Assembly (NCBI GenBank): GCA_023250585.1
Contig: JAHFAK010000086.1
Location: 2,760 to 10,541, forward strand
Origin: Deltaproteobacteria bacterium
GTDB lineage: Bacteria > Bdellovibrionota_F > JAHFAK01
DNA length: 7,782 nt
Reading direction: 5' to 3'
Shown: piece by piece, positions 3,139-7,782 of the stretch
Numbering within the stretch: position 1 is the stretch's first letter
Layout: every line of letters begins with the position of its first letter
Position numbers and translations under genes: made by a program
The notes under the pieces: model-generated
Databases searched by the model: none
What the model was told of the DNA's origin: nothing
Seen by the model: the letters and a program-made list of their open reading frames with translations, nothing else

Positions 3139-3252
3139 GAAGGCGGAGAAATATGTTTTAAAAAAAATTATACCTAAATTTGCTTCCTCTTATAAAACTT
3201 CACTGAGCAAAATTTAGGTATAATTTTTTTTAAAACATATTTCTCCGCCTTC
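3139..3252. repeat. Perfect 43-bp inverted repeat with 28-bp loop
   Basis: Arms 3139-3181 and 3210-3252 are perfect reverse complements over 43 bp, separated by 28 bp (3182-3209). Each arm has a GC-rich outer end (AAGGCGGAG and its complement), a central run of eight A or T, and an inner TTATACCTAAATTT. There is no U-tract after the stem on either strand, so it is not a standard intrinsic terminator, although it would fold strongly in RNA. It sits between the tRNA-Leu side element and the nuo promoter. I do not recognise it as a named element; its loop resembles nothing else in the window. Confidence 0.9.
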
Positions 3253-3261
3253 CCAATTCTT

Positions 3262-3382
3262 ATGCACAGTAAAATTCATTTTAGACAAGGCGAGGAATAA
3301 AAATCCGAGTAAGGCGTATATTATAATACGCCGTCGAGGAGTTTTATTCCTCAACGCAGTATAAGATGAATTTTACAAGCAT
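3262..3382 (+). repeat. Palindromic element, copy A, abutting tRNA-Leu
   Basis: The core is 3280-3365, bounded by TTTAGAC and GTATAAG. It contains GAGTAAGGCGTAT (3307-3319) and AATACGCCGTCGAG (3325-3338), both shared with copies B and C. Inner arms GAGGAATAAAA (3292-3302) and TTTTATTCCTC (3342-3352) pair perfectly. Outer arms 3269-3279 and 3366-3376 pair over 11 bp. After a small internal loop, ATGC (3262-3265) pairs with GCAT (3379-3382), whose last base is the tRNA discriminator position. Orientation is given by the core as in copy C. Confidence 0.85.
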
Positions 3383-3464
3383 GCGAGAGGCGGGACTTGA
3401 ACCCGCACCTAGGTAAGTAGACTGGACCCTGAACCCAGCGTGTCTGCCATTCCACCACTCTCGC
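3382..3464 (-). tRNA. tRNA-Leu, anticodon CAG
   Basis: On the minus strand this folds as a class II tRNA. The acceptor stem is GCGAGAG (3458-3464) with CTCTCGC (3383-3389), the anticodon stem is CTGGG/TCCAG around loop TTCAGGG, and the T-arm is GCGGG TTCAAGT CCCGC. A long variable arm of about 15 nt separates them, as expected for leucine. The anticodon CAG reads the CUG codon. The discriminator is A. The 3' CCA is not encoded (the next bases are TGC), so a CCA-adding enzyme is needed. The body closely resembles the enterobacterial tRNA-Leu(CAG). Confidence 0.96.
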
Positions 3465-3503
3465 AAAAAATATCTTCACAAACGTAGAGAGATTTTTTTG
3501 CCC

Positions 3504-5522: not shown

Positions 5523-5861
5523 ATGTTTACCGCAGAAAAAAAAATACTCGATATTCTTGTACAAAAAATTAAAAACGTACTAAAAAGTGAGCTTGTTACG
5601 ATTGTTGTGTTTGGATCGCGTGTGCGTGGCGATTTCCATGATAGTTCCGATTTTGATATTCTCATTATTGTACAAAAAAAGTCATTTGCTCTACTTAATA
5701 GGATAAACCAAATTATTACTGAAGAAGAATTACGTTCTCTACAAAATTTCGGTGTTCTTGTTAAAGGCCTTAATACTTTTCGCCAAGAAAAAAAATATAA
5801 CACCCCATTTTATCAAAACATTAAAAATGAAGGGAAAGTACTGTATGGTAGAATTGAGTAA
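5523..5861 (+). CDS. MNT-type nucleotidyltransferase (MntA-like antitoxin)
   Basis: This is a 112-residue minimal nucleotidyltransferase of the DNA polymerase beta superfamily. The active-site motif GSX10DXD is complete: GS at 31-32, then D43 and D45 in SSDFDILI. The glycine-rich GSRVRGD and the C-terminal FYQNIKNEGKVLYGR block are typical of the small MNT proteins paired with HEPN partners. In characterised MntA-HepT systems this protein transfers AMP to a tyrosine on the HEPN toxin and silences it. That role is inferred here from the motif and the adjacent HEPN gene. It overlaps the next gene by 17 bp. The ATG at 5523-5525 has only a weak ribosome site. A stand-alone nucleotidyltransferase role cannot be excluded. 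Confidence 0.88.
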   Translation: MFTAEKKILDILVQKIKNVLKSELVTIVVFGSRVRGDFHDSSDFDILIIVQKKSFALLNRINQIITEEELRSLQNFGVLVKGLNTFRQEKKYNTPFYQNIKNEGKVLYGRIE

Positions 5862-6267
5862 GGAAGAAAAAATATCTCTATCAGATATTCGATTTGAAAA
5901 AAGTAAAACAATGCTTACCGATGCAAAAAAAAGCTATGAAGCCGAAATGTATAAAACGTCCGTGAATAGAAGTTACTATGCAATTTTGCATGCAGCTCGA
6001 TCAATTTTAATACTTCAGGGAGTTGATCCATCACGCCACGAAGGAGTAAAAACAATGCTCTCACTCCATTTTGTTAAACCGAAATTGCTCTCTCAAGACG
6101 CAATAAAAATCTTCCATAATTTACTATCCATGAGAACTGATGTTGATTACGGTGATTTTGAGTATATCAGCAAAGAAGATGCAAAAGAATCTTATGAAGA
6201 AGCTCAAAAATTTATTGAAATGATTGAATCAATAAAAAAAAAGTTACAAGAAGAACTCACGAGATGA
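5845..6267 (+). CDS. HEPN domain protein (probable RNase toxin partner)
   Basis: This is a 140-residue all-helical HEPN protein. Residues 42-49 read RSYYAILH, the RX4-6H motif (R42, H49) that forms the RNase centre in HEPN toxins. Further family features are the HAARSIL segment, a GVDPSRHEGV loop, HFVKPKLL and RTDVDYGDF. This pattern matches the classical HEPN family (PF05168 type) better than the HepT/DUF86 type. The tyrosines next to the R...H motif could be targets of AMPylation by the MNT partner. The ATG at 5845 is preferred, with GAAGGGAAAG just upstream; an in-frame ATG at 5827 would add six residues. It ends 4 bp from the convergent gene at 6272, and no terminator is visible between them. 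Confidence 0.87.
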   Translation: MVELSKEEKISLSDIRFEKSKTMLTDAKKSYEAEMYKTSVNRSYYAILHAARSILILQGVDPSRHEGVKTMLSLHFVKPKLLSQDAIKIFHNLLSMRTDVDYGDFEYISKEDAKESYEEAQKFIEMIESIKKKLQEELTR

Positions 6268-6935: not shown

Positions 6936-7053
6936 TTCTGGCAACGTCCTACTCTCCCACAAAGCTGCCTTTGCAGTACCATCGGCGCTGAAGGGCTTAA
7001 CTACCGTGTTCGGAATGGTAACGGGTGTGACCCCTTCGCCATAGTCACCAGAA
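6936..7053 (-). rRNA. rrf: 5S ribosomal RNA
   Basis: The gene is about 118 nt on the minus strand. Terminal helix I pairs TTCTGGTGAC at the 5' end with GTTGCCAGAA at the 3' end. Internal 5S landmarks are intact: CATTCCGAACACGG, AAGCCCTTCAGCGCCGATGG and GGGAGAGTAGG. The ends are set from helix I and may be off by a base or two. It follows the 23S gene after a 287-bp spacer filled by two palindromic elements, and a clear terminator lies just after it. Confidence 0.97.
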
Positions 7054-7059
7054 AACCTT

Positions 7060-7186
7060 AAATCATCGGTCTTATTTTCTTTTATACTTCGTTTTCAGTC
7101 GAAAATCTCGACGACGTATTAGAAAATACGCCTTACTCAATTTTCTCCTTCAAGCCTCGTCTAAAAGAAAATAAGACCGATGATTT
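7060..7186 (-). repeat. Palindromic element, copy B, in the 23S-5S spacer
   Basis: Outer arms 7060-7084 and 7162-7186 are perfect inverted repeats of 25 bp. The core, read on the minus strand, is 7081-7165, from TTTAGAC to GTATAAA. It carries GAGTAAGGCGTAT (7126-7138) and AATACGTCGTCGAG (7107-7120), shared with copies A and C. It is inverted relative to those copies. Its left arm begins 6 bp upstream of the 5S 5' end. Confidence 0.9.
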
Positions 7187-7207
7187 TATTTTCCTTTTTC
7201 TAGAGAA

Positions 7208-7330
7208 CCTCGCAGGCACATTTTGATTTAGACAAGGCCCGAGGGAGAAATCCGAGTAAGGCGTATTTTCTAATACGTCGTCGAGGATTTCGACCGAGAA
7301 CACAGTCTAAATCAAAATGTGCCTGCGAGG
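7208..7330 (+). repeat. Palindromic element, copy C, at the 23S 3' end
   Basis: Outer arms 7208-7233 and 7305-7330 are perfect inverted repeats of 26 bp. The core is 7227-7311, from TTTAGAC to GTCTAAA, with GAGTAAGGCGTAT at 7254-7266 and AATACGTCGTCGAG at 7272-7285. GAAATCC (7247-7253) and GGATTTC (7285-7291) form an inner stem. The element ends about 10 bp from the 23S 3' end, with AAAAATTTTT between them, and 21 bp separate it from copy B. Confidence 0.9.
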
Positions 7331-7340
7331 AAAAATTTTT

Positions 7341-7782
<442 letters not shown>

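Follow-up and report, generated by a model that had tools for sequence, protein, structure and literature searches.

The window analysed here, a stretch of 7,782 nt, belongs to a contig of 10.5 kb in an assembly that totals 2.24 Mb in 164 contigs, and contains the only 5S rRNA gene and the only, truncated, 23S rRNA gene of the assembly. Both are encoded on the minus strand, the 5S rRNA gene at positions 6936-7052 (Rfam RF00001, 95.8 bits) and the 3' part of the 23S rRNA gene, which is cut by the contig end, at 7341-7782 (RF02541, 471.7 bits). As delimited by the Rfam ends and the repeat coordinates, the spacer between them spans 288 nt, 250 of which are taken up by two hairpins. Copy B (7060-7186, 127 bp, 25-bp perfect outer arms) carries its core on the minus strand and copy C (7208-7330, 123 bp, 26-bp perfect outer arms) on the plus strand, the two being separated by a 21-nt linker (7187-7207). 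The right end of B, which is the AACGNAGT side, points toward the 5' end of 5S rRNA across a gap of 7 nt, while the right end of C points toward the 3' end of 23S rRNA across a gap of 10 nt (7331-7340, AAAAATTTTT). This last stretch is possibly one half of the 23S terminal stem; the 5' flank of the 23S gene is absent from the contig. The original prediction had described about 250 bp of the spacer as two long, near-perfect hairpins of the same family, inverted relative to each other and set off by gaps of 6, 21 and about 10 nt. All of this was borne out, with 7 nt measured on the 5S side, and the opposite orientation of B and C is documented by an asymmetric core common to both that matches on opposite strands.

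A third copy of the same family, A, is located at 3269-3376 on the plus strand, and its right end is separated by 4 nt from the 3' terminus of a tRNA-Leu(CAG) gene (3381-3465, minus strand). An inverted repeat with perfect 43-bp arms around a 28-nt loop (3139-3252) lies 16 nt from copy A and is unrelated to it in sequence. Positions 5523-6267 are occupied by overlapping genes for a nucleotidyltransferase (Polbeta/NTP_transf_2) and a HEPN protein as assigned by Pfam, which likely form an MNT-HEPN toxin-antitoxin pair.

A covariance model built from nine copies of this genome yielded about 69 core matches in the same genome. The copies fall into at least four subfamilies that share one inner plan, consisting of an apical GGCGTAY...RTACGYC stem, tandem G.A mismatches formed by CGAG opposite CGAG, and an internal loop whose left side reads AAGGC and whose right side reads AACGNA. 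Copies A, B and C measure 108-127 bp, and the size given for the family as a whole is 110-165 bp. The inner core of about 85 nt is conserved between genomes; the outer arms are lineage-specific yet complementary. Of 385 other genomes sampled, 24 contained the core, and in the phylum of one of these hosts it was present in 25 out of 46 genomes. Matches to the type-1 pattern occur in Nitrospinota, Desulfobacteraceae, other Deltaproteobacteria and one Uhrbacteria record, while phages, plasmids and viral contigs yielded no matching copy. No Rfam family exceeded the threshold for the repeat, only rRNA and tRNA reaching gathering scores, and the sub-threshold matches belong to eukaryotic miRNA hairpin families. 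Nor did we come across a description of the repeat in the literature searched, which comprised open-licence papers only. As far as Rfam and this literature reach, the elements thus represent a new and widespread variant of MITE-like palindromic repeats. It is unusual for one core to persist across distant bacteria while the transposon termini vary, which hints at a function of the core itself.

The arms of individual copies in this genome are complementary to a median of 90% over 20 nt, as compared to a 99th percentile of 60% for random sequence. Among the old copies, namely A, B, C and the C117 copy, arm identity is 25-50% and core identity amounts to 56-84%. Recent copies have arms in common, from which it follows that the arms belong to the element; the notion that they are inverted copies of the insertion site was rejected on the same grounds. 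There was no signal for an extension of the palindrome into flanking DNA. In the C63 copy of this genome and in L131 elsewhere, one arm has been rewritten into an exact match of the other, which suggests that arms can be corrected from one another.

Signs of mobility come from active subfamilies. Type-2 copies of this genome are flanked by TNA target-site duplications (TSDs) in 16 of 27 cases (5.6 in shuffled sequences, with a maximum of 13 in 1000 shuffles), and 5-bp TSDs accompany 9 of 11 copies of the G418/G399 subfamily (0.8 in shuffles), the ends of which read GGTGTGTTGAAAAATGG...CATTTTTCAACAGTCC. With these TSDs in active subfamilies and with a length under about 300 bp, lack of coding capacity, terminal inverted repeats and presence in multiple copies, the elements are MITE-like. 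As the TSDs differ by subfamily, one core travels with different ends and duplication lengths. No TSD was seen around B and C themselves, type 4 of this genome has a 5-bp duplication in one of seven copies as scored by script, and in a second G399 burst YTAR duplications in four cases were suggestive by eye and not significant in the script. Active G418/G399 copies such as L385 and L383 are longer at the left by about 25 nt, in which the terminal motif (TGTTGACAAAG or TGTTGAAAAATGG) occurs a second time. The type-1 copy L176 from a Nitrospinota MAG is flanked on both sides by the 12-bp direct repeat AGAACAAAAATT.

The placement of A, B and C beside stable-RNA genes recurs elsewhere. In the same genome, one copy lies 5 nt from tRNA-Cys (C18), another adjoins tRNA-Leu (C43) and the C63 copy abuts RNase P RNA. 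Across 158 copies in 47 other genomes, we counted 15 flush contacts with tRNA or tmRNA, a contact being regarded as flush when the core is 19-30 nt away. At L404 (G417; other family, distantly related) a copy is situated upstream of 5S at nearly the distance seen for B. Stable RNAs make up 16 of 76 flush neighbours, which is far above an assumed gene share estimated at 2.5% (p about 1e-10), and 15 of 59 once copies with like arms are removed. This enrichment could mean that copies are kept at these sites for a function instead of being neutral insertions, and the flush position itself may be due to targeting, to retention for processing, or to both. Long perfect hairpins with arms of 21-38 bp that do not clearly belong to this family are also present within 0-21 nt of other tRNA genes at the loci L242, L256 and L258 of this genome, and at L443 (G415) a single element with near-perfect arms occupies the entire space between two tRNA-Arg genes.

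Orientation provides a further clue. In all 20 one-sided stable-RNA cases, as tallied by hand, the right end is directed toward the RNA (p about 2e-6), and stop codons of protein genes are flush with the right end in 37 of 72 instances, as opposed to 13 of 81 for the left end. Such a constant orientation with respect to the RNA suggests insertion specificity, and it is quite conceivable, if tentative, that a putative transposase joins the right end beside the ends of structured-RNA genes and the 3' ends of genes. The observed orientation accounts for the inverted arrangement of B and C, which results from two insertions following the same rule, each right end pointing at its own rRNA. The rule is not universal, however, because the near-tRNA copies L127 and L144 of the type-1 set (Nitrospinota/Desulfobacterota) present their left end, and the roughly 25 extra nt at the left ends of active copies blur the comparison of right and left.

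At the RNA level, the spacer is predicted to fold with -131.4 kcal/mol, as compared to a shuffle mean of -64.9 (sd 5.0; z -13.4). In this minimum-energy fold B is paired with C, and two separate hairpins result at -120.4 when the pairing distance is limited to 150 nt. During transcription, the separate B and C hairpins could arise earlier than the pairing of B with C. It is plausible from the sequence that their stems are substrates of RNase III that set the mature rRNA ends. RNase III is encoded in the genome and the enzyme cuts Correia MITE hairpins in Neisseria transcripts (PMC10969869), which by analogy makes cleavage of B and C likely. Domestication of the hairpins as processing signals is a more far-reaching proposal: RNase III cuts would yield the 5' side of 5S and the 3' side of 23S rRNA, and like copies would play this role for tRNA, tmRNA and RNase P RNA. 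Besides the presence of RNase III and its activity on MITE hairpins in other bacteria, it is favoured by arms that have diverged yet remain perfect and by distances of 0-10 nt between arm and mature end in A, B, C, C18, C43 and many genomes. We nevertheless consider it rather doubtful, since stop codons of protein genes are flush neighbours as well, since cutting of a palindrome by RNase III needs no fixed orientation, and since the one relative from the same class that was compared (88% identity in 23S) has a 23S-5S spacer of 56 nt without the element. The elements are thus not required by the class. That close relatives with a short normal spacer and identical mature ends would reveal the elements as dispensable passengers had been stated in the original prediction; the short spacer was indeed encountered, albeit in a distant relative. 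At this class-level distance, the comparison revealed no empty insertion site.

Taken together, B and C are most likely two old, non-autonomous copies of MITE type that were inserted separately with their right ends against rRNA. A transposon-like palindromic element would have entered the 23S-5S spacer twice, its right end coming to lie each time beside the adjacent rRNA gene. The outer arms differ between lineages but have stayed self-complementary, the likely cause being either arm-to-arm rewriting or compensatory selection. In the precursor rRNA, B and C would form long stems that are probably cut by RNase III and that would not be essential for rRNA maturation. Cleavage, neutrality and arm correction are parts of the explanation that we infer. 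The proposal of two independent insertions, already contained in the original prediction, is supported by the multi-copy nature of the family, the unrelated arms of B and C and the TSDs in active subfamilies. The finding also cautions against taking every long hairpin in an rRNA spacer to be a processing signal by origin. The flush placement at the ends of tRNA, tmRNA, rRNA and RNase P RNA opens up a direct test of whether mobile hairpins reshape the maturation of stable RNAs.

Other readings fare less well. A superfamily of mobile hairpins with a conserved core and differing transposon ends, distributed across many distant bacterial lineages, aimed at stable-RNA ends and taken over there as processing stems, appears unlikely to us. 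Mobilisation as REP elements by RAYT transposases is disfavoured and very improbable. The repeat is palindromic, intergenic and multi-copy, and Y1 transposase genes are present in seven of the eight host genomes searched, but these genes do not lie beside the elements, no full R1 element stands next to them, and the genome with most type-1 copies has no Y1 transposase in the sequence searched. No transposase could be linked to the repeat in this search, which covered Y1 only. In addition, the repeat exceeds the 20-40 bp of REP elements with its 110-165 bp and has 3-bp and 5-bp TSDs. De novo inverted duplication via replication template switching, without any mobile element, would account for perfect arms and for the separate perfect 43-bp inverted repeat in the window, but is scarcely credible because it is contradicted by a core sequence shared by about 69 copies here and conserved in distant genomes.

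Several known systems resemble the elements assigned here to the MITE type. One likeness is with prokaryotic MITEs such as Correia/NEMIS, ERIC and Chunjie, which are likewise short, non-coding, intergenic and multi-copy, with terminal inverted repeats and with TSDs in active subfamilies; this likeness is one of general features. The present repeats differ from them in that one core occurs across subfamilies with unrelated termini and differing TSD lengths and in many families, in their flush position at stable-RNA ends, and in that no parent IS was found. REP elements of the GTAG and CGTC families are also intergenic palindromes found in several phyla (PMC3733652), but they are 20-40 bp long with tagged unpaired ends and the GTAG family is linked to RAYT, whereas for the longer repeats described here no such link was found. 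Rickettsia palindromic elements are likewise palindromic repeats of about 150 bp in several families (PMC10969869), but they are known for inserting in-frame within protein genes, whereas the present repeats reside between genes. Finally, intervening sequences of 23S rRNA also add a stem of 100-200 nt to rRNA transcripts (PMC8708148), but they are located inside the 23S gene, whereas the repeats reported here sit in the spacer between 23S and 5S and are scattered over the whole genome.
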